From: Pegethrix bostrychoides GSE-TBD4-15B
GTDB lineage: Bacteria; Cyanobacteriota; Cyanobacteriia; Elainellales; Elainellaceae
Assembly (NCBI GenBank): GCA_019359155.1
Contig: JAHHHV010000064.1
Span: forward strand, 1 to 64,000
Direction: 5' to 3'
Length of the DNA stretch: 64,000 nucleotides
Part shown: positions 1 through 61,074 of the stretch, in pieces
Layout of the letters: each line of letters begins with the position of its first letter
Position numbering within the stretch: position 1 is the stretch's first letter
The notes under the pieces: generated by a model
What the model saw: the letters and a program-made list of their open reading frames with translations, nothing else
Told to the model about the DNA's origin: nothing
Database searches by the model: none
Program-made: the position numbers and the translations under genes

Positions 1-129
1 CGGGTGCATCTGTCAGGGACGAAGGTTCGGGAGATGCTGCGCCGGGGAGAGCTGCCGCCGCCAGAGTTTTCGCGGCCAGAGGTGGCAGCAGAGCTGGCCA
101 GAGCAGCTCAAATCTCCCTCCAGGCTTAG
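1..129 (+). CDS. sat: Sulfate adenylyltransferase, C-terminal end only (partial)
   Basis: The window opens in frame inside a gene and 42 codons remain before the TAG at 127-129. The tail begins [15 protein letters not shown] and continues with a [11 protein letters not shown]-type segment, which is the highly conserved C-terminal stretch of dissimilatory/assimilatory ATP sulfurylase (SGTKVR...[13 protein letters not shown]). The enzyme makes adenosine 5'-phosphosulfate from sulfate and ATP in the first step of cytoplasmic sulfate assimilation. The catalytic domain lies off the left edge, so nothing can be said about its integrity. The next gene starts 25 bases downstream on the same strand, so read-through transcription is possible. 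Confidence 0.85.
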
Positions 130-153: not shown

Positions 154-2397
154 ATGACACTTCAGCGACGCGCCTTTCTACAGCGAGCCAGTCTGCTTGC
201 CGCACTCGGACTCAGTGAGGCAGGATTTGGGTTGCTGAGTCAGCGCTATCAGCAGGCGTTGGCTCAGCCCATGCGTCGCAAGCTGGCGCTGCTGATCGGC
301 ATTAACCAATATCCTGAATCGGTCTGTGACTATACGCTCAGAAACCCTGCGTCCAAAGGCTCCGCCCTGAATGGCTGTCTCACCGATGTCGAGCTGCAAT
401 ACGAGTTGCTGCTGAGCCGATTTGCCTTCGCGTCTGCCGACATCCGGGTTCTGACCAATCAGGCAGCCACCCGTGAGGCGATCGAAACAGCTTTCCTAGA
501 GCATCTCGTCGAGCAGGCGGCTCCCGGTGACCTAGTGCTGTTTCACTTCAGCGGCTTGGGCAGCCAAGTGCAGATCGATGGTGCGACTTGGCAAAATAGC
601 CTGGTGCCGATCGATGGCCTGCTGCCGACTGCCGAGCGTCCCGTGGTGCAGGATTTCATGCAGGAGACGCTAGCCTTGCTGCTGCACCGCCTGCCAACCA
701 GTCAGGTGATCACGATTATTGATGCTGGCTACAGCCGTTTGGGGCGGAGCACAGAGGGCAATCTGCGGATTCGCTCACGGCCAAACGCACCCGTTGGGGC
801 TATCGCTGCTGTGGAGCTGGCCTTTCAGGCGAGTCTGCGTCGTCCTGTTTCAAGCTTCTCAAAGCAACCCCAGCCGCTGCCAGGACTGCTGCTGCAAGCT
901 GGAACTGATCGACAGCTGGTGGCCGAGGCTCAGTGGAGCGGCTTTAGCGCCGGACTGTTCACCTATGCGCTGACGCAGCAGCTCTGGGGAGATGCCCCCT
1001 TGCTGGTCAGCTTTACGCAGGCGGCAGCGCTGGTGCAGCGAAGTACGGGTGCCAAACAGCAGCCAGTTGCCAGCGGAGAACTGCCAGCGCTGGGGCTAGC
1101 TATCCCTGCCGCTGCAGGCGTGATCCAGCATATTGAGCCGGATGGCAGGCTCGATCTCTGGCTGGCCGGACTACCCGCCGCCGTGCTAGAAAACCAGACC
1201 AGCTCACTGTTTGCGGCTGAATTGACGACTGAGCCAGAACCCGTGCTGATCCAGATCCGCAGCCGCGACGGGCTAGCCGTAAAAGCTCGCAGCCTCTCGC
1301 CTGTCGTTTTGCGCCCCGGTCAGCCCCTGCGCGAAGTTTTGCGAATCTTGCCCCGCGACATTCGCTTGACGGTAGCGCTTGATCCGGATCTAGAGCGGAT
1401 TGAGCGGGTGGATGCGACCAGCGCCTTTGCCGCAATTCCTCGAATTACGGCGGTCGCGATGGGTGAGCAAGCCACCGATCTGCTGTTTGGCAAGCCAAAA
1501 TTTCCGCTGCTGGCTGGGCAGAACAGCCAGCCAGCCAGCCAGCCAGACTCAGCCCCGGGCTTGACGGTTCAAAAGACAGTTCAAAAGACGGTTCAAGATA
1601 CGCCTCAAGCGCCGCCGCTCTCAAAGGGTGGCTATGGGCTGTTTTATGCTGACTACAGCACGATTCCCAGCACGCTTAACCCGACAGCAGAGGCGGTAAA
1701 AACTGCGGTGGCTCGCCTGAAGCCGCAGCTGAAGACACGCTTGGCCACGAAGCTATTGCAAATTACCCAAAACAGCAGCGCCTCACTCAAGGTTAAGGCC
1801 AAGCTCAATCTCGTCTCGCCTGAAACCAAGTCTGTGCTTGAGCAGGGCACTAGGCTGGCAATGCCCTCGGCGCTGAAGGAGCCGCGATCCGCTCCGATTC
1901 TGCCGGCGGGGGGGCAAGTTCAGTATGCTCTAGAAAATAGTGGTGATCGCCCAGTCTATTTCCTGCTGATTGGGCTCAACGCCAACGGCAATCCTGTGCT
2001 GCTCTACCCGGCCAATCCGATTATTGCAGCAGGTGCAGCAACAGCCGTACCGGCGGTCAACGGCGCGAAAACTGGCGGTGGCTGGCTGCTGCAAACCGCA
2101 ACGGGCTTGGCCGAAACCCACGTCATTTTCAGCACTGCCCCCTTCACCCAAACCTCACAGCTCTTAGCTGAACTGCCTCAGTTTGAACTCGATCAGGTGC
2201 TGGCATTGCCAAATCCGCTGGCGGTGGTCGAAGCCGTTTTGCAGGATTTACATCAGGCTAGCGCTGAGTTTGCGGCGAAGTTGCCCGTCGAGATTCCGGC
2301 AGATAGCTACGCGCTGGATGTTAACGCCTGGGCAAGCTTTAGCTTTGTCTATCAGGTAGTGCTCAAGCAGGTTGTGCTAGAGTCGCCCGTTGGCTAG
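154..2397 (+). CDS. Tat-exported caspase-fold (C14) protein with lost catalytic dyad, DUF4384-like C-terminus
   Basis: This 747-residue protein starts with a twin-arginine signal (QRRAFLQ at residues 4-10, then a hydrophobic stretch to about 28), so export by Tat is inferred. Residues 43-200 have the p20 caspase/metacaspase layout: LALLIGINQY, then LNGCLTDVE, then LVLFHFSGLGSQV and ITIIDAGYS. In active orthocaspases the corresponding motifs are SGHG and D(C/S)CHSG. Here Leu135 sits at the histidine position and Gly192 at the cysteine position, so the protein should be proteolytically inactive. The C-terminal part (about 580-680) resembles DUF4384 (surface or exported bacterial beta domain). 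A low-complexity linker around 455-490 holds short Gln/Ser/Thr repeats. Dead-dyad orthocaspases are known in cyanobacteria; the role here (pseudoprotease scaffold or binding protein) is inference. It ends 4 bases inside the convergent DUF58 gene. Confidence 0.8.
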   Translation: MTLQRRAFLQRASLLAALGLSEAGFGLLSQRYQQALAQPMRRKLALLIGINQYPESVCDYTLRNPASKGSALNGCLTDVELQYELLLSRFAFASADIRVLTNQAATREAIETAFLEHLVEQAAPGDLVLFHFSGLGSQVQIDGATWQNSLVPIDGLLPTAERPVVQDFMQETLALLLHRLPTSQVITIIDAGYSRLGRSTEGNLRIRSRPNAPVGAIAAVELAFQASLRRPVSSFSKQPQPLPGLLLQAGTDRQLVAEAQWSGFSAGLFTYALTQQLWGDAPLLVSFTQAAALVQRSTGAKQQPVASGELPALGLAIPAAAGVIQHIEPDGRLDLWLAGLPAAVLENQTSSLFAAELTTEPEPVLIQIRSRDGLAVKARSLSPVVLRPGQPLREVLRILPRDIRLTVALDPDLERIERVDATSAFAAIPRITAVAMGEQATDLLFGKPKFPLLAGQNSQPASQPDSAPGLTVQKTVQKTVQDTPQAPPLSKGGYGLFYADYSTIPSTLNPTAEAVKTAVARLKPQLKTRLATKLLQITQNSSASLKVKAKLNLVSPETKSVLEQGTRLAMPSALKEPRSAPILPAGGQVQYALENSGDRPVYFLLIGLNANGNPVLLYPANPIIAAGAATAVPAVNGAKTGGGWLLQTATGLAETHVIFSTAPFTQTSQLLAELPQFELDQVLALPNPLAVVEAVLQDLHQASAEFAAKLPVEIPADSYALDVNAWASFSFVYQVVLKQVVLESPVG

Positions 2398-20479: not shown

Positions 20480-23400
20480 TTACCGCTGGAGTACGTAGCC
20501 TGAGTTGCTAGGTTTGTAGGTGCCCAGCTTAGAGCCGTTAGAGTTGTACAGCTCGACGGGAACCTGAGTGGCTTCGCTCATATCTGCCAGCGACCGCAGC
20601 AGCCCGTTCACCTGATCTACAGCAGCAGGCGGAAATCCTGGGCTGGGTGAAGCGTTAGAAATGAGCTGGGTGACCGTCTGATCGTAGAGTGAGGTGAACT
20701 GCACCCGAATCGCCTGGGGCGAGAGCGTGTAGGTACAGATTTTGGGCGATCCGGCGCAAACCTGGTCGAAGCCGGACTTAGCTAGCTGAATGGCTCCAGA
20801 ACGCTGCGAGTTCTCCTGCGCCTGCTGCAATGTCTTGGCGTAGGTGCTCAGGAGCGGCTGCACTTGGCTGTAGTAAGCCGACTGGTTGGGAATTTGCTGA
20901 GCGGCGCTGAGGGCATTGCGCCACTGGGCGGCGGCTTCAGTCCACTGATTTTGCTGCTCTAACGCTCGCGCCTGCTCGGCTGCATTCAGCGCCTCGGCGT
21001 AGGCTCCGGCGGCGGTTTGTTCTTGGGCGCGCTGGATATTGGCCTGCGCGAATTTGGGCTGGTAGAGCGATAGAAGCTGCTGAGCCTCGGCATGAGCGAC
21101 TGTCCCAGATGGGATCTGCTCTAGCTGACGAATGGCCACCGTCCAGTTGGCGGCGGTTTCCTGCCAGTTTTCAATCGACTGGGCGGCTTCGGCCTGAGAC
21201 TGCGCCAGCTCTCCCACCTTACGAGCTGCCGCAACCCGCTCTTGTGCCTGCTGCTCTGCGGCAACTCGCTGGTTAATGCCGCTCAAGTTGGCGCGATATT
21301 CTTGCAGCTTGCGCTGAACTAGCGCATAGAGTGGATTGTCAGCTGGAATCTGCTCTAGTCCGTTAATCACCTCGCGCCAGCCCCACTGGATTTCGCGCCA
21401 GACGGGCAGCGGATGCGGCGGGTTTTGGCTACGCTGGGCAATCTGATTGGCTTTGTCTAGGGCTTCGACGACCTGCTTGAGCGCCACGGACTGGTCTTCG
21501 TAGGTGGCCAGCAGTCTTTGTGCCTTGGAATAGTGGCTTGACCAGACTGGAATTATGCCTAGCAGATAGTTGGCTTCGCTGAGCTGCTTATAGGCTCCCA
21601 CGACATCGAGCGCCGAATCGGTAGTGCGGGCAGTCTGAATCGCCGCTAGACTGAGCTGCTGCGCCTGCTGAATCTGCTCGCAGCGACCCATCACGCAGGG
21701 GCGAGTCAGCATATACAGTCCAATGGCCAGGACAAACATGCCCAGCGCCCCACTCAGGGCGAGATTGGGAGTGCTTTGCTGACGAGCAGCAGGCTCTACG
21801 GCTTCGGCTCCTTCAGGGGTTTCTTGGGGGGGGGCAGCTTCAGCTACCGGAGTCAGGGCTACCGGAGTCGGGGCTGCTGGCGCTGGGACTGTTGGAATTG
21901 CAAACGCTAATTCTGTAGAGTCGGTTTCTGCTTCTACCTCTGCTTCCGCCAACAGCAGTTCTTCTGCCTCCGCTGACTCTGTGGTATTTAGACCCTCTGC
22001 TTGCAGGTCGATGCTGTCAAGTTCTAGGCTATCGTCAGGCAAGACCGCTGACTCGCTGAGCACCGCTCTGGCAAACGAGTCTTCTGCTAACGACTCTGCG
22101 GTATCGAGCATATCGGTTTCACTGTCTAGCTCCAGACTGTCTAGCTCCAGACTGTCTAGCTCAAACTGATCGAGTTCGATATCGTACTCGTCGCCGTCAT
22201 GACTATACTCGGCAGCCTGATCTAGCGGAGCAAGTGATAATAACTGATCAACAGTATCGGTATCGTCGCCATATTCTGAAGCTAGTAGTTCAGAGTCAGA
22301 GTCAGGCTCAAGGGCACTGAAGGGATTGGCTTCTACGGTTAATTCAGATGCTGAAATTTCGTCGGAGAGTCTTTCCTGATAAATAATCCCTTCATGAATC
22401 ACCTCCTTAGGGATTACTGCTTCATGATCTTCATGAACAGACTCGTAGAGGTCGTCTTCTATCGCATCAGCAGTATCAAGGCTGTCTTGATCGATGCTGT
22501 CAAGCTCTAAACTGTCAAGCTCTAAACTGTCAAACTCTAAGCTGTCAAATTCAATGCCCTCCAGCATGTCATCGTCAAACTCAGCGCCATCTAGCTGGAC
22601 AGTTGAGTTGGGCAACGCTGCTGAAGCTGCTGCAATGAGTTCGCTGACTAGCTCTGGATTGAGCGGTTCGGATTCGGGTTCAGCTACGAATGGTAGAGCA
22701 GTTGGCTCGACCAGCTCAACTGGCTTAACTTCGGATACCTGAAAATCACTCAGCTCGCGTATCAGCAGATCGGGTTCTGTTGCATCGATCTCAGCCTCTG
22801 CAAGCTGATGAATTAACAGATCGATGTCAAAATTCTCAGACGCATTCTCAGGTAAGTTGTCAAACTGCTGCACGACTGGCTGTTCGGCAACCGCTGGCTC
22901 AATTACGGCTGGTTCCATCGACTCAGCGGACAACTCAGGCTGCGCTTCTAGGCTGGGCGAGTTAATTGGGGCAGTGGCTAATTCATCCTCAAAACCAGCT
23001 GCAACTAGCTCACCTATCTCAACCAGTTCTGGCGCAGCTAAGTCACCGGGCTGCGCTACTGAAGACTGCGCTGCCGTAACCTCTGCGATTTCTGCAACTT
23101 CTAATTGCAATGATGGCTTAATCTCTTCGCCTGCTTCGATTTCAAGCAAGGCGGTACTCTGCTCAAGCAATTCAGTTGGATTGTCGTTAGGCTCAATCTC
23201 AGGCTCAATCTCAGCCTCCAACCCCCAAGGATCAGCAATCGTGAAGTCGGGTGCTGCTTCAGGTTCCGCCGATGGCTCGATTGCTTCGGTATGCTCAGGC
23301 TGCGGTTCTGGTAAGGCCGTAGGTAACGCAGGCTCAATAGCTGACTCGATAACCAACTCGACAAGTGGTTCGACAAGTGGTTCGACAAGTGGCTCAGCAA

Positions 23401-23824
23401 CAGGCTCAATAATTGGCGCAGCCACGGGTTCGACCGTCGACTCGACAACGGGCTGACTCGGCGCTGTAGCTAGTCTTGATCTAGAGGCTGGTTTAGGCAG
23501 ATCTAAGCGAAATTTGCGCGATGCGTAGGGCTGCTGATAGCCTGCGATTCGTAAAAACATCTGTACCGGCAGCTTTTCTGGAGCTGCGGCTTCGGCGCTC
23601 AGCATCTCTGGAACCAGCTCTCGAATCGCCGTTTCTAACTCTTCAAAGGTCTGCTCCAGATCTGGTTCCAAATGCAGCAAATGCTCGGCCAGCACTAAGA
23701 GCGTCTGATCCTTAACTGCACAGCGAAACTGAAGCGTATGCCGCTCCAAGCGCCCTAGCAGCGCCTGCTGGAGCGTTTGCCCAATCGCGGTCTCTGGCTG
23801 CGGAGCAGGATTTCTAAACCTCAT
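20480..23824 (-). CDS. Large acidic repeat membrane protein, unknown function
   Basis: From the ATG at 23822-23824 (MRFRNPAPQPETAIGQT) this is a 1114-residue protein; the frame is open further upstream, but that part looks non-coding. Residues 1-110 form a folded N-terminal domain. Residues 130-700 are very acidic and low in complexity: first EPLVEPLVEPLVE-type pentads, then two clusters of the unit LELDS (for example at DNA 22130-22166 and 22494-22550). A single TM helix follows (LALSGALGMFVLAIGLYML, about residue 745), then a roughly 350-residue Ala/Gln-rich helical part with repeated AAxWxxAL-type segments and a C-terminal beta domain. An acidic disordered cytoplasmic half anchored to a periplasmic helical half is the likely topology. 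No family recognised beyond general resemblance to IMS-like or chaperone-associated cyanobacterial membrane proteins. Confidence 0.75.
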   Translation of the reverse strand: MRFRNPAPQPETAIGQTLQQALLGRLERHTLQFRCAVKDQTLLVLAEHLLHLEPDLEQTFEELETAIRELVPEMLSAEAAAPEKLPVQMFLRIAGYQQPYASRKFRLDLPKPASRSRLATAPSQPVVESTVEPVAAPIIEPVAEPLVEPLVEPLVELVIESAIEPALPTALPEPQPEHTEAIEPSAEPEAAPDFTIADPWGLEAEIEPEIEPNDNPTELLEQSTALLEIEAGEEIKPSLQLEVAEIAEVTAAQSSVAQPGDLAAPELVEIGELVAAGFEDELATAPINSPSLEAQPELSAESMEPAVIEPAVAEQPVVQQFDNLPENASENFDIDLLIHQLAEAEIDATEPDLLIRELSDFQVSEVKPVELVEPTALPFVAEPESEPLNPELVSELIAAASAALPNSTVQLDGAEFDDDMLEGIEFDSLEFDSLELDSLELDSIDQDSLDTADAIEDDLYESVHEDHEAVIPKEVIHEGIIYQERLSDEISASELTVEANPFSALEPDSDSELLASEYGDDTDTVDQLLSLAPLDQAAEYSHDGDEYDIELDQFELDSLELDSLELDSETDMLDTAESLAEDSFARAVLSESAVLPDDSLELDSIDLQAEGLNTTESAEAEELLLAEAEVEAETDSTELAFAIPTVPAPAAPTPVALTPVAEAAPPQETPEGAEAVEPAARQQSTPNLALSGALGMFVLAIGLYMLTRPCVMGRCEQIQQAQQLSLAAIQTARTTDSALDVVGAYKQLSEANYLLGIIPVWSSHYSKAQRLLATYEDQSVALKQVVEALDKANQIAQRSQNPPHPLPVWREIQWGWREVINGLEQIPADNPLYALVQRKLQEYRANLSGINQRVAAEQQAQERVAAARKVGELAQSQAEAAQSIENWQETAANWTVAIRQLEQIPSGTVAHAEAQQLLSLYQPKFAQANIQRAQEQTAAGAYAEALNAAEQARALEQQNQWTEAAAQWRNALSAAQQIPNQSAYYSQVQPLLSTYAKTLQQAQENSQRSGAIQLAKSGFDQVCAGSPKICTYTLSPQAIRVQFTSLYDQTVTQLISNASPSPGFPPAAVDQVNGLLRSLADMSEATQVPVELYNSNGSKLGTYKPSNSGYVLQR
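22130..22166. repeat. 15-base coding repeat (LELDS units)
   Basis: Units of ACTGTCTAGCTCCAG recur head to tail and code for LELDS on the minus strand. A second, diverged cluster lies at 22494-22550. The perfect DNA identity of the first cluster suggests recent slippage expansion. Confidence 0.7.
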
Positions 23825-23882
23825 GCGCTCTATTCCGATTCGAGAAACACTGTTTGACCATACGGCAGAAATGCAGGGTGAT

Positions 23883-23908
23883 CCGCTAGACTTCAAGTCT
23901 AGCAGCGG
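23883..23908. other. Strong hairpin upstream of the acidic-protein gene
   Basis: GCTAGAC and GTCTAGC pair around TTCAA, with outer CCGC/GCGG pairs and one bulged base. It lies about 60 bases before the chosen start of the minus-strand gene and could be a leader hairpin or an operator. It supports treating this region as non-coding. Confidence 0.5.
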
Positions 23909-24021
23909 CGAAACTCCAAAAAGTTCACAAAATTTTGGCTGTACAGTTCTAGTTTTAGCCTTAAATTCGGCCTCAAATTGGCCTTGCTTCATGATTTCAG
24001 TCTGGATTTCAGTCTGGCCGC

Positions 24022-49370: not shown

Positions 49371-52300
49371 CTACTTACTCTTCGGCATAGGTTGCTGCTC
49401 AACTGTAGGAGGAAAAATATGGTCGAACCACTGCTTAAACTCTTCGTTAAATACGCCGCTTACAGTCATTGATAGTGGTATGGCAATTACTGCCACGAAA
49501 ATCCCAATCACAGTGAGCCAGTTTCCCCAATTAATTCCTTGCTTGGCATCGGAACCAGGAATAATCACTTGGCTATTAGTTACTCCACTTGTACCAATAG
49601 GGGCATTAATGGGTGAATTTGGCGAATTTGAAACGGTGATATTATTTTCGATTTTTGGTTCATCTTCCATTTTCTTTGTTCTCTGATCTACTACATCAAT
49701 TTGATTGGACAAGTCTAAGTTTGAAGGTTCTCGGCTAATCACAAGCTGAAGAAACTCTTCTGGTGTCAAAGGTTGCCAACTTTTACGCCGCAGATTCGCT
49801 TGAGCATCAATCAACGCTTTTCCAAGCCAAGTAATATCTGGCAGTTTTTGAATGAGACGTTGAATTTCAGCACATGCTAGGGGTGTTCCTCGTTCCTTTA
49901 ACTGTGACAAAATACTGTCTCTCAGCCTTGAGATACCGTCCCTAGCTGTCACAGAATAAGCCATCACCTCATTGCTATGATCAAGATCTTCTTCATAAGG
50001 ATATTGATGCACTAGCCAGACATATAAGTCAGCCAACTGCGCTTCTGTCAGATTTAGTTGAATTCCGTGCGAATAACGTTGAGCAGCTAATTCGAGAACT
50101 TCACGTCCAAATGATGAATCTTGCTGAATCAATGACCAAATAAACGACCAACTAGATGGATCTGAATTCTCAACTAGCACTCTAGAAGCAATCAGAACCT
50201 TCTCACGTTCATCCTCAGCTGATGGCAATGGAAAAGAAATTAGGGACTTCGCAAAATCTTTAGCTTCAGTTAATCCTTGGTTTAGAAGCTCTTCGAGTAG
50301 CTGCCCGACACATTTTGGTTTCAGTGCATAATCTTTAGACTTTTCTAACAGAGCCAACTTCAAGCGCTCATCCCAACACTTCTCAAAGCGATTAACTACA
50401 GATATATAGTCAGACTCCTGGTTCTCTTTATCAATGAGCGTTATCAGTATATTAATGGATGCTTGAGGAGCATTCAGATAAGCGCATTTGACTATTTCTA
50501 GATAAGAGTCTTCGTATTGATTACTACGAGGGACAGCAATAATAACAGGTGCCCATTTTTTCCATATTTCAGATGAGAGGGTGTCTAAGAAATCCTTGCT
50601 TTCTTTCACAAGTAGCTGTAAAGCTCTACAACCCGCTAGTGCTGGTCGATCGAAAGTATTTGTCCCTATCCATTCATAATCTATCTCATTCTGCTTCTGA
50701 ATATAACTTTTAGCACCTTCAATAATTCTCTTTTGAGTAGCCTCTTCTGCCTCTTGCCATCCAGGAAGCTGAGTTAGATCTAATTCAAACTCACTGCCAT
50801 AGTGTGTACTATCAGGCTTGAGAGTCATTTCTATATTAAGCTGCCACCAAGCAGATAAATCTCCAGATTCTAATTTCTCTAAAAGTCGGAGGACTCGTTC
50901 CTTGGGGAGTGGATCTAGCAAAGGAGAATTTTGCCTGCGTTCTCGCATTTCTTGCATTCTAAGGTGATCAGCTCTCAGATTGTCAGCTTGAGTTGAACCC
51001 AGCTCGATTGGTACAAAGTAAGATGCAAAAACTTCCTGTAGAATATCATTAGTTTGAGTAACTAAAACAATTGCATCTATTTGCTGTGCATCTTGATAGT
51101 TAAAGCTCCGTTGGAGAAGTTGAGACCAAATCCTTTCTGCCCTCTCATGATTGAAATTTTTGAGTTTTTCAAGCATCCAAAAAACATCTTCTGAAATTAT
51201 AATATTTTCGATTAGGGGGCTTAAAAGAAAATATGGATCTTCTTTTGTTTCTGAAATAATTAAAACTGCTTGCTCGATTAGTGTATGTCGTTTTTTGCTA
51301 TCTTTCAAAAGCGATGATTCAAATTGTTGTTGTAGCTTGCCATCATCAGTAATGATTCTCTGATGCGCTTTCCACTGTACTAAGGCCGTCTTAGTAAAAC
51401 TTTCTGCTACTCCAGGAAGGTCAAGATTTTCCCATACCTTCAAGAGAATGGCATTCCCAAGCTTTTCAAAGGGATGTCCAAAACACCTAATACCTTGATT
51501 TCCAAGCCAGTTAAGGACAACTACTAAATCATCTAGCTGAAGTCTTGGTACTAACTCAATGTCGATAAATATCTGGTACGATCCAAGGAAATTTCTCTTT
51601 TTTGGTCGGGTAAGAACACTGAATAACTCCTCTGCTGTGAGAGACTCTGACCAGAGCGCCCGTAATGCGTAACCTTTTAGCCGATCGTCCTCATCTTCTT
51701 GTAGTTGTTCAATGGCTAAGGGCTTAAGCTTTAATCTTATATCTGCATCACCAATTGAACAAATAGCCTTAGCTGCGCTCGCTCTCAAGTAAATTGATTG
51801 TGATGAGTCAAGCGAAAGATTTGCTAGTTCTTCCTGAAGCCCAGAGACTTCGCAAACTTCGGCAATGTCAATCGCTCTATTTCTTGCGTCAATCTGTTTG
51901 GTAGAATCCTGAATATATGGACGTAATTGAGCAGCTAAACCTGGATGCTTCAACTTTCCATAATTTCGGTATTGGTTTCCTTCATGGTCATACAACTCTT
52001 CCTGTTCATATTGCATCAATAAGCTGGTTACGATCGCTTCTCGAAGATTAGATTCTGTAGAAATATCACTGCGTAATAACACATCTGGATCAGTCTTTAT
52101 GATATCTTGAAGCACATCCATCCTCATGCTAGCTAGCCATGCAGCAGTTTCATGAAGCTGAGGAATAAGCTTATGCTCTGAATCTTCAGACGAAAATAGT
52201 AATGTTCTTAATGTAGCAAGCGGTATTTCATGTTGTGTTAAATACCAGGCTGCTAAAAACTCAGCATAAGTCTGGTGTGCCCACCCCATTTGGTGCAACC

Positions 52301-53348
52301 CACGAGACGAGAACAAACCGGTGTCTAAAATTTCCTCAATGACTGCTCTGGTAATCTCAAATTCTCTTCCGCTAGCAGTTTCATAACCGTGACACATTTT
52401 TTGAAGAGGTACATCGTCAGCAGGTATCTCCCCTTGATTAACTCCAGCCCATACAGCAAAGCGGTTGGAAAGGATTGTGATAGCCGCAATTCGAGCAGCA
52501 ACAATTAGACGTTGATCAATATCAAGATTACCTCTTCGGTTTGAACCCCGACGGCTTTCATTATTTTCCTCACAGAGAAGCTTGCACCCCTGAAGGTAGA
52601 GTTCATTCTGATTAGGAGGGAATTGGCCACCGTGACGGCGGTAAATATTCAGCAGAAATCCCAGAGTGACTGGCTTTATCGCTAGCGATACAATATTTTT
52701 CTGCCCAACTTCCCTTAGAAAATCATCAGGAGAAAATCCCTCAGCTTCTGCGGCTACGATAACGTCAACAAGCCGAAGCGGAGCTAGCTCGTATACTCCT
52801 AAAGAACTTTCACCCCAAATTTCCTTCAACCCTTCTTCAAGAACTGGTGGCCATACAGCCGTTCGACAAGCAATACGTAAACATAGACGGTGAATCACAT
52901 CCCGGTGACGTTTAAATTCATCAACTAAGAGTGTTGCTAAGGTATCTACTCGTAGCAAGCATTCATCGAAACTATCCAGGAAAATATATAATTTGTGGGT
53001 GCCTGTCTGCCACGCTTTAAATTCTGAGCTGTCGAATAGGCTGCGAACTAATCTGTCCTCACTCCCATACGAGCGAAGATCTATGAAAAGCGCTCGATCA
53101 CCTTGTTCTTGAATTTTATTAACAATTTCACTTCGCTCTACCTCTAGAGCTTGGGTTTTGCCAATTCCCGGTTCACCTAAAAGCGCTAAGCATGATAGGT
53201 GAGAGATGGTCTCAAAAGTTACTAAATCTGGGTTATATGCCTTGCCCCATTCTCCATCTGGATCGCACAGGTAGCCTCGATCAGCTAGGTTAATGCTGCC
53301 TGTGCGAGGACACCAAAATCGTTTCCAGCCATATACTTGCTTCGCCAT
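49371..53348 (-). CDS. NACHT/STAND-type NTPase with helical repeats and C-terminal membrane helix
   Basis: From the ATG at 53346-53348 this is a 1325-residue protein. A short N-terminal region (residues 1-50, YGWKRFWCPRTG...YNPDLVTFE) precedes the NTPase. Walker A is LLGEPGIGKT (residues 56-65). Walker B is LYIFLDSFDE (119-129 region), with the paired acidic residues of NACHT proteins. A winged-helix-like module then leads into about 800 residues of HEAT-like helical repeats (for example SIYLRASAAKAICSIGDADIRL). The end has a Asn/Ser-rich segment (residues about 1240-1265), one TM helix (LTVIGIFVAVIAIPLSMTV) and a short tail. STAND NTPases of this kind sense ligands and often guard against phage. 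The gene is visibly AT-richer than its flanks, suggesting transfer. Effector and trigger are unknown. Confidence 0.82.
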   Translation of the reverse strand: MAKQVYGWKRFWCPRTGSINLADRGYLCDPDGEWGKAYNPDLVTFETISHLSCLALLGEPGIGKTQALEVERSEIVNKIQEQGDRALFIDLRSYGSEDRLVRSLFDSSEFKAWQTGTHKLYIFLDSFDECLLRVDTLATLLVDEFKRHRDVIHRLCLRIACRTAVWPPVLEEGLKEIWGESSLGVYELAPLRLVDVIVAAEAEGFSPDDFLREVGQKNIVSLAIKPVTLGFLLNIYRRHGGQFPPNQNELYLQGCKLLCEENNESRRGSNRRGNLDIDQRLIVAARIAAITILSNRFAVWAGVNQGEIPADDVPLQKMCHGYETASGREFEITRAVIEEILDTGLFSSRGLHQMGWAHQTYAEFLAAWYLTQHEIPLATLRTLLFSSEDSEHKLIPQLHETAAWLASMRMDVLQDIIKTDPDVLLRSDISTESNLREAIVTSLLMQYEQEELYDHEGNQYRNYGKLKHPGLAAQLRPYIQDSTKQIDARNRAIDIAEVCEVSGLQEELANLSLDSSQSIYLRASAAKAICSIGDADIRLKLKPLAIEQLQEDEDDRLKGYALRALWSESLTAEELFSVLTRPKKRNFLGSYQIFIDIELVPRLQLDDLVVVLNWLGNQGIRCFGHPFEKLGNAILLKVWENLDLPGVAESFTKTALVQWKAHQRIITDDGKLQQQFESSLLKDSKKRHTLIEQAVLIISETKEDPYFLLSPLIENIIISEDVFWMLEKLKNFNHERAERIWSQLLQRSFNYQDAQQIDAIVLVTQTNDILQEVFASYFVPIELGSTQADNLRADHLRMQEMRERRQNSPLLDPLPKERVLRLLEKLESGDLSAWWQLNIEMTLKPDSTHYGSEFELDLTQLPGWQEAEEATQKRIIEGAKSYIQKQNEIDYEWIGTNTFDRPALAGCRALQLLVKESKDFLDTLSSEIWKKWAPVIIAVPRSNQYEDSYLEIVKCAYLNAPQASINILITLIDKENQESDYISVVNRFEKCWDERLKLALLEKSKDYALKPKCVGQLLEELLNQGLTEAKDFAKSLISFPLPSAEDEREKVLIASRVLVENSDPSSWSFIWSLIQQDSSFGREVLELAAQRYSHGIQLNLTEAQLADLYVWLVHQYPYEEDLDHSNEVMAYSVTARDGISRLRDSILSQLKERGTPLACAEIQRLIQKLPDITWLGKALIDAQANLRRKSWQPLTPEEFLQLVISREPSNLDLSNQIDVVDQRTKKMEDEPKIENNITVSNSPNSPINAPIGTSGVTNSQVIIPGSDAKQGINWGNWLTVIGIFVAVIAIPLSMTVSGVFNEEFKQWFDHIFPPTVEQQPMPKSK

Positions 53349-53715
53349 GTTGAACCGCAATGAGGGCAAAACTCTTTTTCAAGGATAGCCTCATTCAAAA
53401 GTCTTTGTGTCTTGTCCTCTAGCTCAAGTAATAGCTTGACCGAATTGATCTTATCGGATTTTGAATTTCAACAAATGGCCCTTCAAGTTGTAGAGCCAAC
53501 TGGTATCTTGAACAGACCAAAAATCCACTGGTTAACCAGTCTCTGCCCGTCTAGCCAGAGTTGGCACAACTTAGCTAGGAATGTGGAAATTGGAGGTGAA
53601 GTAACCAGCTAGAATTGCATTCAACGCAGCTAGACAGGCCCAAGGTTTTCGGCAAGCATATAGACTTGCCACTTGCTGTATTTTCCTTCATTTTGACAAA
53701 CTGCTCGCCAAAAGC
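53349..53715. other. Gap upstream of the NACHT gene
   Basis: No supported gene; a plus-strand 66-codon frame (53412-53612) has no family features. The NACHT promoter should be here. No attachment site or inverted repeat is evident. Confidence 0.3.
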
Positions 53716-57364: not shown

Positions 57365-59890
57365 TTAGCGACGCAGGCTGAGGATCTCTGGCAGTAGATA
57401 GAGCCAGAGTACCGTGATCGGCAGAACAATTGGCAGTAAAATAGCGGCTGAGGATACGTAAAGCTGAAGACTAAGGAGAATATAAAAAATCGTGCCTATT
57501 GCCCAATAGAGCATAGCTCTTGAGCGAGCTGAACTTGCCGACGAACTGTACTGATAGGATTGCGTCGCTCGTTGGGCAGTCAACGCGAGTTTGCCAATCA
57601 CCGCAGCCAGCAAAACCATCAGCAGACTGGGCACAGGAATCACGAAGCGCTGATGCAGAAAATGGTGGAACAGATAGCCAAGATGTTCGCCACCCGTCAT
57701 TTGTCGATAGTGGTTTTCGGGCTGACGGCCATACCAATGCTGCATCGCTTTAGGCGGCGTAAAGTTTTCCAGATAGCCAATGCCGTTATCGGTTTGGGCA
57801 ATGCCTGCTTCTGGGTAGCCGCCCGCAGTAATAATTGCGCTTCGGGGTAGATCTGCCAAATCACTGGTAGGCTCTAACAGCTCCCAAGCCGGAATTTCGC
57901 GGTAGATCTGCTCGGGTGGAATCGAAAAATCGGTGATGGCATGGAACCACATTGGGTAAAGTGAAAGCCTGCCCATGAGCGCATCCAGCAATTCGCTGAG
58001 CGGTAGGCGGTACTGCGGCAGCGCGCCTGCGGTGGACTGATGGCGATGCAGCCAGCTTAGCCAGTAGGAAAACGGCAGGTCGAGGCTGCTGTCAAAATTA
58101 GACTGGATCGGCATGTGAAAGTTATCGCCCACAGCCCGGATTGCCGGAGCTTCGATATTGCCCTGAGTAATCTCTGATAGGCTCTGCATCCAGATATTGC
58201 TATTAGGATTGAGAATTTTGGCAAATACAAACTGACCGCCATTTTTCACTGCTTGCTGAATAATTTTAGATAAATATAGCGTGTGCTCAGCGCCACGCGG
58301 ATCGGGATCATCCATTACGTAGTCAATCCCAATCACTTTAACGCTCTGATTGGTCAATGTTGACACTAACTTTCCAATATACTGCTGCGATATTGGAAAC
58401 GCTGAGCCGCCTATTATTTGCTCGCCCTGCTTGTCTTTCTGAATCGAAGCGTCATCAATTCGGACGAGCGCTAGATCGCTGGCCAAATTTAGCCCCTGAT
58501 TTGTGAGCTGATCTGTGAGCTGCCGATACCAGGCTTGAACTAGCTCTCGCTGATCCAGCAGCCCAATTTGCATCCAGGGTAATATACTCAGAAAAATACA
58601 GAGCAGCAGTGCTATAGCTTCCTGGGGTTTGGGTAATAGCCAGTTAATGCCCTGTCGCCAGTTTGGTAGGCTGAGCAGAAATGAAGCCGTGCCGGGACGC
58701 TGAAACAGTGAAGGGACAAGATAGGCTGAGGGATACTCTAATTTGTCCAGCGAAGCGACAGCCTCTCGCATTGCCCTATGAGCTGTTTTATACTCTTTGA
58801 GGCCGCTGGCAAACTGCACCAAAAACGCCTGCGCCACTCTGCTGTGAATTCGCTCGCGCATCACAATCACTTCGTTCAAGCCCAAGTCAATCAAGGCGGC
58901 AGCAATTTGTAGGCCGCTGCAAGAGTTGAAGATGGCTAGCTGTAGCCCCTGATTCTTGGCAGTCGTCAAGGAGGGCTTGAGATCCTCAATTGTGATGTAC
59001 TCATTGGGTGCAATCGCCACCATGCCGCTAGTTGCTTTTGTCTCATCGCTGTGGCCTGCAAAAAACAGCATATCCCAACCTCTAGGGTCGGTGATGGCCG
59101 CTAAAATACTCTGCCGCAGGTCGCGGGTGGGCTGGGGGACGGAGTCGCTGCCCCAGCCGATCATCTGCACCGACACCAGCGGCTCCAGTGATTTGAGGAT
59201 CTGCTTTTCCTGACTCAGATCCAAGCCGAGATCATCACAGAAGATAGCCAAAATCCGGACGCGCTTCCAGCGAGCGCGCTGCGGCATGCGGCTGCTGCGA
59301 ATCCGGCTAGGGGTGCGAACTAGGCGAATTTTGTCGAGCACTGCCTGATCGTCTGAAATCTGCCAGTTTTCCCAGGGAAGCCGCACCAGGTCATCGGGTT
59401 CGCAGGTCAAAAACACGTTGAGTCCTAGCTTTGAGCCGCGAGCCGCATTGGTCAGCTCTTGGCGAATATCTCTGAGCGCACCCTCAGCCAGCCAATCGCG
59501 GAAGGCTTGTAGCAGAGCTGTTTCAGCTTCTTTGAGCTGGGTTTTCCAGTCAATTTTGGGATCAATGCTGCCGCTCTTAGCCACATAGGCACGCAGGGCT
59601 TGAGCAGATGTCTGAATGGGTGTTTGAATGGGTGTTTGAATGGGTGTTTGAATGGGTGTTTGAATGGGTGTTTGAATGGGTGTTTGAATGGGTGTTGGAA
59701 TCGGGTCTTGAACAGGCAGCCAGGTCTGATAAAAGTTGAGATAGAGCTGCTGCCAGTTTTGATAGAGCCGATCGAGCTGAGCTGGATAGGAATGGCGCGC
59801 ACTGGTGGACTGTGACTCGCCCCAGGCTAGCTCAAACTGGCAAATAGTCTCGAATCGAGTGACTTTGAGCCGAAATTCAGCGAGCATCAT
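57365..59890 (-). CDS. CHAT protease-CHASE2 transmembrane sensor protein
   Basis: The start is ATG at 59888-59890, 2 bases after the stop of the upstream gene; the protein has 841 residues. A TPIQ repeat (about residues 65-93) follows a short N-terminal region. A CHAT domain (caspase-like) spans about 155-460: FFAGHSDE gives His280 and FNSCSGLQ gives Cys324, so the catalytic dyad is intact. One TM helix (about 475-495) is followed by a CHASE2 sensor domain (about 500-770: DLALVRIDDASI..., VIGIDYVMDDPDPRG). Three closing TM helices lie before the C-terminus. CHASE2 is extracytoplasmic, so an outside signal could control a cytoplasmic protease. Linked CHASE2 proteins usually end in kinase or cyclase domains; the CHAT here is N-terminal. 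Substrate unknown. Confidence 0.9.
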   Translation of the reverse strand: MMLAEFRLKVTRFETICQFELAWGESQSTSARHSYPAQLDRLYQNWQQLYLNFYQTWLPVQDPIPTPIQTPIQTPIQTPIQTPIQTPIQTPIQTSAQALRAYVAKSGSIDPKIDWKTQLKEAETALLQAFRDWLAEGALRDIRQELTNAARGSKLGLNVFLTCEPDDLVRLPWENWQISDDQAVLDKIRLVRTPSRIRSSRMPQRARWKRVRILAIFCDDLGLDLSQEKQILKSLEPLVSVQMIGWGSDSVPQPTRDLRQSILAAITDPRGWDMLFFAGHSDETKATSGMVAIAPNEYITIEDLKPSLTTAKNQGLQLAIFNSCSGLQIAAALIDLGLNEVIVMRERIHSRVAQAFLVQFASGLKEYKTAHRAMREAVASLDKLEYPSAYLVPSLFQRPGTASFLLSLPNWRQGINWLLPKPQEAIALLLCIFLSILPWMQIGLLDQRELVQAWYRQLTDQLTNQGLNLASDLALVRIDDASIQKDKQGEQIIGGSAFPISQQYIGKLVSTLTNQSVKVIGIDYVMDDPDPRGAEHTLYLSKIIQQAVKNGGQFVFAKILNPNSNIWMQSLSEITQGNIEAPAIRAVGDNFHMPIQSNFDSSLDLPFSYWLSWLHRHQSTAGALPQYRLPLSELLDALMGRLSLYPMWFHAITDFSIPPEQIYREIPAWELLEPTSDLADLPRSAIITAGGYPEAGIAQTDNGIGYLENFTPPKAMQHWYGRQPENHYRQMTGGEHLGYLFHHFLHQRFVIPVPSLLMVLLAAVIGKLALTAQRATQSYQYSSSASSARSRAMLYWAIGTIFYILLSLQLYVSSAAILLPIVLPITVLWLYLLPEILSLRR
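59613..59696. repeat. Seven 12-base repeats encoding TPIQ
   Basis: TGAATGGGTGTT is repeated seven times without change (59613-59696), then decays (GGAATCGGGTCT). The repeats keep the CHAT-CHASE2 frame and add a flexible spacer. Copy number is likely variable between strains. Confidence 0.95.
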
Positions 59891-59892
59891 GG

Positions 59893-61074
59893 TTATTCGC
59901 TGGGTTGTTTGCTGGGGGCAAAGCCAAACGGGGTCAGCGTCAGCGCAGCACCAGTCGGTGCAGTCACCGTGACTCGAAACTGCTCGTCTGGGGCACCCAC
60001 AAGCCAATTGTAAAGGTAAGGCTGATCACTCAGCCGCTGTTCGCTCAGCAGTTCCTGATTGGCTTCTACCTTAAGCGTCAGGCCAACGGGTAAAGCGCCA
60101 GACTGTGCGCCCAAGATCAGCAGTAGCGACCATTGATCGGGGGCAGGCTCCCAGGTCAGCACGTAGAGCTTGAGGCGAACTTCTTCTAGCTCCAAGTCGC
60201 GTTCGGCAGCTCTGGCGCTAGTGGGAATGGCGATGCCCTGAGTCCCCTGCAACTCGCGCAGCACAGCATTGAGCAGGTCAGCTCCACCCATCATCGCACC
60301 GCTGAGGTTGAGTGCCGCAGGCGGCAGCAGATGCCAGGAGAGCGATTCGGCCACCTCATCTAGCCTGCCTTGCAGCCAAAGCCGCAGGTTAATCAGATTG
60401 GGAGGAGCCAAGCTGACTTTAGGTGGCTGAACGGGTGGCTGAACGGGTGGCTGAACGGGTCGCTGAGCAGATTGCTGAATTGGGGCGGCGCTGAGCTGAG
60501 CGCGCAGTTGCAGCAATAGCCCTGCTGGATCCGCAAATGCCTGAATGGGCAGGAAGCTCAAATCAGCGGCTTGCGGCAGGGCGAACTGAGCTTCGAGCTG
60601 GGCAAGGTTAAATTTCGCCTGCGGCAGATAGCCCTGTATCCGCACTTCTGAGAGTTCTTCGAGGACTTCGACGAGCAGATAGAAATCAGGCCGATCTGCC
60701 GCATCTAGTTTGGGAACGCCCACCAGCGGATCGGCCAGACAGTCGGTGATCAAGAGATGCAGCCGCGACCGAGCAATTTGAATCTGGCTGACGGCTTGAC
60801 TCAGACCAGTTTGATTCAACTCAGGAGCCGCGCCACGCAAGTCCTCAGCCTGCAAAAAATCACTCTCTATCTTAATCTCAGGCGACCGCTTAGCCAGCCA
60901 TTCTTGCAGTCCCAGCAGCGCCAGACTGTTGAGATAGGTTTGCCACTGCTCAACCTCGGTGCTGGCCTGATGAGCCAGCTCAATCGCCTGCGTCACCTGG
61001 GCAGTCGTTAGGGTAATGCTGCCTGAGGTCAGGACATGTGCGCTCAAGGTGTCGTCTTGCATAAAACTCATCAT
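59893..61074 (-). CDS. DUF1822 family protein
   Basis: The 393-residue protein begins with the DUF1822 region (LTTAQVTQAIELAHQASTEVEQWQTYLNSLALLGLQEWL). Residues about 200-225 are a low-complexity PVQPPVQPPVQP linker encoded by 12-base repeats. The C-terminal part is beta-rich (KLYVLTWEPAPDQWSLLLILGAQSGALP, then FRVTVTAPTGAALTLTPFGF). DUF1822 proteins are cyanobacterial, without known function, and recur beside CHAT/CHASE2 genes as I recall. It lies two bases before the CHAT-CHASE2 gene, so the two must be coupled. Confidence 0.85.
   Translation of the reverse strand: MMSFMQDDTLSAHVLTSGSITLTTAQVTQAIELAHQASTEVEQWQTYLNSLALLGLQEWLAKRSPEIKIESDFLQAEDLRGAAPELNQTGLSQAVSQIQIARSRLHLLITDCLADPLVGVPKLDAADRPDFYLLVEVLEELSEVRIQGYLPQAKFNLAQLEAQFALPQAADLSFLPIQAFADPAGLLLQLRAQLSAAPIQQSAQRPVQPPVQPPVQPPKVSLAPPNLINLRLWLQGRLDEVAESLSWHLLPPAALNLSGAMMGGADLLNAVLRELQGTQGIAIPTSARAAERDLELEEVRLKLYVLTWEPAPDQWSLLLILGAQSGALPVGLTLKVEANQELLSEQRLSDQPYLYNWLVGAPDEQFRVTVTAPTGAALTLTPFGFAPSKQPSE
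60425..60460. repeat. Three 12-base repeats encoding PVQP
   Basis: GGCTGAACGGGT occurs three times exactly (60425-60460), with a diverged fourth copy. It codes for PVQP units in the DUF1822 protein, parallel to the TPIQ repeats of the next gene. Confidence 0.9.

Follow-up and report, generated by a model that had tools for sequence, protein, structure and literature searches.

A Tat-type pseudo-orthocaspase with a Leu-Gly dyad in Pegethrix bostrychoides, its family motif and its catalytically intact sister group

A gene of the window, the stretch of 64,000 nucleotides of Pegethrix bostrychoides GSE-TBD4-15B analysed here, encodes a caspase-like protein of 747 amino acids (positions 154..2397, plus strand, ATG start) in which the catalytic His and Cys are replaced by Leu135 and Gly192. 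Its family, the Tat-type pseudo-orthocaspases of cyanobacteria represented by SyOC (sll0148) of Synechocystis PCC 6803, has been described before. This identity is solid, and the Leu-Gly protein is real and mostly ordinary, the variant being common among close relatives. LG dyads, the Tat-like leader, the acidic pocket and the linkage to the ATP sulfurylase gene sat in one genome are already in print; measured against the parts of the literature that were consulted, a sister group with intact His-Cys (HC) dyad, the motif IERVDATS and the extent of the sat linkage are new.

Caspase fold and lost catalytic dyad

The caspase-hemoglobinase p20 fold is evident from Pfam, where Peptidase_C14 (PF00656) covers residues 42-307 (277..1074, plus strand) with an E-value of 1.4e-16 and 61.3 bits, the cut-off being 21.4. 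A phmmer search of the PDB matched metacaspases, the best at 2.7e-07. No further domain of the protein lies above the Pfam cut-off; outside C14 the sole match is a weak DUF4384-like beta domain at residues 586-663 (1909..2142, plus strand; E 0.0075, below the curated cut-off), a region with beta strands in the AF2 model. The metacaspase p10 domain gave no Pfam match and may be absent. p20, no p10 match in Pfam and the substituted dyad LG together make the protein a pseudo-orthocaspase. NCBIfam holds no family for it.

The full-length AF2 model (10 rows) has a mean pLDDT of 53.9 with values of mostly 70-90 in the p20 core, and a further model, restricted to residues 39-565, has a mean of 47.2; what can be used is limited to p20 and a portion of the C-terminal beta region in the full-length model. 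By VIA-align the p20 model resembles GSU0716 (Z 15.2, 190 residues, 3.6 A) and Arabidopsis metacaspase-4 (6w8s; Z 14.9, 202 residues, rmsd 3.9 A). Foldseek matches to folds other than caspases, namely MSP-like and further beta sandwiches, were discarded as too weak (E at least 0.007). The gene is under purifying selection, with a dN/dS of 0.159 overall and 0.127 in p20 in comparison to the 78%-identical orthologue of genome G004, a ratio that is rough since dS of this pair is near 0.9. A p20 model that aligns with caspase-like and metacaspase structures at Z about 15 and a dN/dS of about 0.16 show that the caspase reading of the first-pass annotation is not a product of chance. Trypanosoma brucei MC2 and metacaspase-4, both with solved structures, share the p20 fold and the acidic S1 residues with the window protein. 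Unlike it, they are active proteases without a Tat leader.

The same annotation had both catalytic residues replaced, a loss that a corrected alignment placing His and Cys elsewhere could have undone. Alignment of p20 with 26 HC paralogues that share its architecture puts Leu135 (codon 556..558, plus strand; context FHFSGLGS) in the His column and Gly192 (727..729, plus strand; context IIDAGYS) in the Cys column, 26/26 paralogues having His and Cys there, and the phmmer alignments to the PDB pair the L of SGLG with the H of the metacaspase SGHG. The only cysteines of the protein are C58 and C75; there is no replacement Cys near residue 192. Since the alignments agree and no other cysteines exist, the substitutions are real and a shifted dyad can be rejected, and the loss stands. 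H131 of FHFSG was considered as a displaced catalytic His and dismissed, the HC paralogues keeping H131 beside H135. What did not hold is the view that YS is the sole known variant type: Table 1 of PMC6426788 lists YG and HG pseudo-orthocaspases, and LG is among the 16 rare dyads of PMC8283722. The likeness to this cyanobacterial LG pseudo-variant is known from the dyad letters alone.

The acidic S1 pocket of the SyOC type is kept. Asp95 and Asp211 form the pocket for basic residues in T. brucei MC2, and the pocket of YS variants is likewise acidic (PMC6426788); by spacing from the GC motif and the Cys position, Asp78 (385..387, plus strand) and Asp190 (721..723, plus strand) are the probable equivalents. 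D78 is present in all 116 dead and 6/6 HC proteins of the first sampling described below and in at least 95% of either set once the HC rows number 26, and D190 in 116/116 dead proteins. No change was counted on the tree at D78, S133, G134 or D190.

The family of dead caspases and its intact sister group

Matches to the protein were found in 37/40 near genomes, its own included, and in 133/386 genomes of a phylum-wide draw which takes in many small-genome and other lineages. The sampled rows are the proteins of loci from both searches, the phylum-wide matches entering in part only, supplemented with a further 54 best hits and 6 second hits; 127 were extracted and 5 duplicates dropped, leaving 122, namely 116 dead and 6 HC. 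The dyads of the dead rows are YS (66), LG, LS and YG (12 each), CS (6), FS (5) and LA, YC and HG (1 each). Thus the His site holds 79 Tyr, 25 Leu, 6 Cys, 5 Phe and 1 His, and the Cys site mainly Ser (89) or Gly (25). With 25/116 members, Leu at the His site is a lineage trait.

In a FastTree phylogeny with the dyad columns removed, in which the named SyOC is not included, one branch with support 100 separates the 116 dead from the 6 HC rows, so the window protein shares its descent with the YS rows and stands apart from the HC Tat paralogues. The minimum count of changes on this tree is 4 for Leu, 11 for the His position and 19 for the Cys position; these figures are approximate because FastTree warned of long branches (L120, L126, L119 and L123). 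It had been expected that the dyad sites are among the fastest columns; this was rejected, the median over 237 p20 columns being 33 changes. Both sites therefore remain constrained, position 135 mostly to bulky residues and position 192 to small ones.

Fetching 20 more second hits, all of them HC, enlarged the 6 HC rows to 26 (L127-L132 and L134-L153). All of these 26 have the same Tat leader with an intact dyad, and they co-occur with the dead copy in several relatives. In leader, length, p20 (34-43% identity) and overall architecture they are like the window protein; unlike it, they keep the dyad and have neither IERVDATS nor a sat neighbour. Their leader is at odds with PMC6426788, where it marks YS variants. 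Neither this group nor the motif was found mentioned in the consulted sections of the orthocaspase papers, and for 2021 onwards the matches listed held no further account of the Tat group.

The family signature LERIERVDATSAF (residues 413-425; 1390..1428, plus strand) lies outside p20 and occurs in 116/116 dead proteins and 0/26 HC paralogues. The same holds for its core IERVDATS (residues 416-423; 116/116 versus 0/26) with a pattern that was widened afterwards; the strict motif is present in 95/116, the other 21 differing by one or a few letters. Searched as a DNA pattern, ERVDATSA was found once per genome in 32/40 near genomes, always on the contig of the caspase gene, and its reversed control gave 0 matches. 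Columns which are conserved to at least 92% in the 116 dead rows and not in the 26 HC rows lie nearly all outside p20: R415, I416, E417, R418, V419, D420, T422 and S423 of the motif, and Y494, A514, K516, K533, L551 and W726. The sole such column inside p20 is E258, in place of D. A514, K516 and K533 fall on a predicted long helix of the AF2 model (residues 510-537; 1681..1764, plus strand). Residues 404-522, motif included, have a pLDDT below 50 in the full-length model and fare no better in that of residues 39-565; that R415 and R418 might plug the dead acidic pocket is offered as an idea. Motif and dyad loss lie on one branch, so that their association counts as one event and not as many. 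The motif provides a residue set outside p20 to mutate, and the HC group the closest live relative to compare.

Leader, gene neighbourhood and possible function

Residues 1-37 (154..264, plus strand) read as a Tat-type signal peptide (QRRAFLQ ... ALA), as had been noticed at first sight. The RR motif is found in 121/122 rows, the exception (L026) starting at a contig end; an A-x-A site is seen by a crude pattern in 95/122 rows, and A37 is 94% conserved among the 116 dead ones. The genome has one TatC gene. RR and A-x-A of the YS variants were called TAT-like, motif software not having assigned the leader (PMC6426788). SyOC and its Tat-leader YS and YG kin (PMC6426788; PMC7889975) share with the window protein the dead dyad, the leader with A-x-A, the acidic pocket and a p20 domain followed by a long C-terminal part without named domain; the differences are LG instead of YG or YS and the further orthocaspases of this organism.

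Dead caspases are reported from nearly all thylakoid-bearing cyanobacteria (PMC6426788). In PCC 7002 the homologue of sll0148 is A0101, annotated as 'ICE-like protease (Caspase) p20' in Table 1 of PMC7880944; there it stands in the 11th row among the 123 proteins that the lumenal bait PsbU-APEX2 enriched, and it was absent with the cytosolic APEX2 control. According to this lumen proteomics A0101 resides in the thylakoid lumen, and by the published descriptions A0101 and sll0148 would be orthologous to the window gene. A partner at the peptidoglycan or envelope, which had been suggested at first, is less likely than one in the thylakoid lumen in view of this labelling, and the A0101 row points to where partners may be sought; a citation of it was not found in the parts of the orthocaspase literature consulted. 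Deletion of sll0148 raises H2O2 tolerance and under normal conditions has no obvious effect on growth (PMC7889975); the terms Tat, twin-arginine and periplasm were not found in the consulted text of that paper.

Most probably, by a judgement that falls somewhat short of even confidence, the window protein is a non-cutting, Tat-exported protein of the SyOC/A0101 type which resides in the lumen and binds Arg/Lys segments as scaffold, sensor or competitor. It would fold in the cytoplasm and be carried across the membrane in the folded state by Tat, the thylakoid lumen being the most likely destination. With both catalytic residues gone it would cleave no protein. Binding without cleavage is proposed because D78 and D190 of the acidic pocket are kept together with the caspase fold: Arg/Lys-containing segments of lumenal partners would most likely be bound uncleaved and presented to the protein's own C-terminal region, the bearer of IERVDATS, with a role in stress and in the quality control of photosystem proteins. 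The location in the lumen and the H2O2 phenotype are those of the homologues (PMC7880944; PMC7889975), and Tat dependence, ligand, partner and role are presumed for the window protein. Against this lumenal binding speaks that it leaves the conserved sat linkage without account.

A more specific version is rather unlikely, with perhaps some chance of being right. A single loss of catalysis in a Tat-exported ancestor would have coincided with the gain of an invariant C-terminal site (IERVDATS with Y494, K516, K533 and W726) and so produced a lumenal receptor; the dead pocket would capture Arg/Lys peptides of damaged photosystem proteins, the new site would perform the conserved function, and Leu/Gly would be one of several equivalent non-catalytic states.

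The neighbourhood raises the further, improbable alternative that an operon with ATP sulfurylase links the protein's role to sulfur metabolism. The C-terminal 42 residues and stop codon of sat occupy 1..129 (plus strand), the 42 residues at 1-126 being assigned by a full-length homologue at locus L038 which is ATP-sulfurylase in Pfam; the gene ends 24 nt before the caspase start. Of the dead rows, 115 extend for 120 nt or more upstream, and in 79 of these sat is the directly preceding gene on the same strand; at none of the 26 HC loci was sat matched. Among L-type rows the linkage is seen less often (LG 5/12, LS 6/11, LA 0/1). A sulfur link was already proposed from the locus of the Nodularia metacaspase M32, which lies beside sat (PMC4933709). 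However, the linkage was not seen in 36/115 rows, and shared transcription need not imply shared function. Furthermore, ATP sulfurylase is a cytoplasmic enzyme, yet the window protein has an export leader. A DUF58 gene lies downstream in 5/116 rows (111 of the 116 extend for 300 nt or more in that direction); the 5 are all L-type, and the gene was set aside as a local feature.

Still less probable is that the dead copy pairs with an active Tat-exported orthocaspase and tunes it, as cFLIP does with caspase-8. The HC group would supply such partners, as its leader is the same in 26/26 fetched rows and it accompanies the dead copy in several relatives. However, the own genome (99.97% complete) shows no Tat-type HC paralogue, the sole match to it being the window gene itself, and hence pairing with that paralogue cannot be the role in this organism; genomes with the pseudo-variant only are known as well (PMC6426788).

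An activity as hydrolase via other residues of the same cleft is very improbable: fold and pocket are intact, but C58 and C75 are not near the site, and the dyad sites vary from bulky apolar to small residues, unlike a conserved new catalytic pair. Decay of a gene no longer needed, which the loss of both catalytic residues and the absence of the family from some genomes might suggest, was rejected as hardly credible, largely by the dN/dS of 0.16, and also in view of the intact 747-aa frame, the invariant pocket and motif and the Leu common to 25/116 members.

Further caspase-like and unassigned proteins

The 5.7-Mb genome yields 6 matches to Peptidase_C14. As read from the alignment, His and Cys are both present in L001, L002 and L005; L006 is a fragment. 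L003 on contig C1 is a second dead caspase, of Tyr-Asn type (FSGYG, LLDANR), so that LG and YN dead caspases stand alongside live ones. L001, L002, L003 and L005 gave no blastp match to the window p20 at E 1e-3, L006 being too short to enter.

Two large proteins of the window lack any Pfam match, namely the product of a 1332-aa reading frame at 49371-53369 (minus strand) and a protein of 1170 amino acids at 20480-23992 (minus strand), which carries acidic repeats (ELDSLELDSLELDS) before an apparent single membrane helix. The protein with CHAT and CHASE2 domains at 57365-60007 (minus strand), for which an intact dyad had been claimed, does appear to keep His and Cys (FAGHS ... NSCSG), as judged by reading its sequence.
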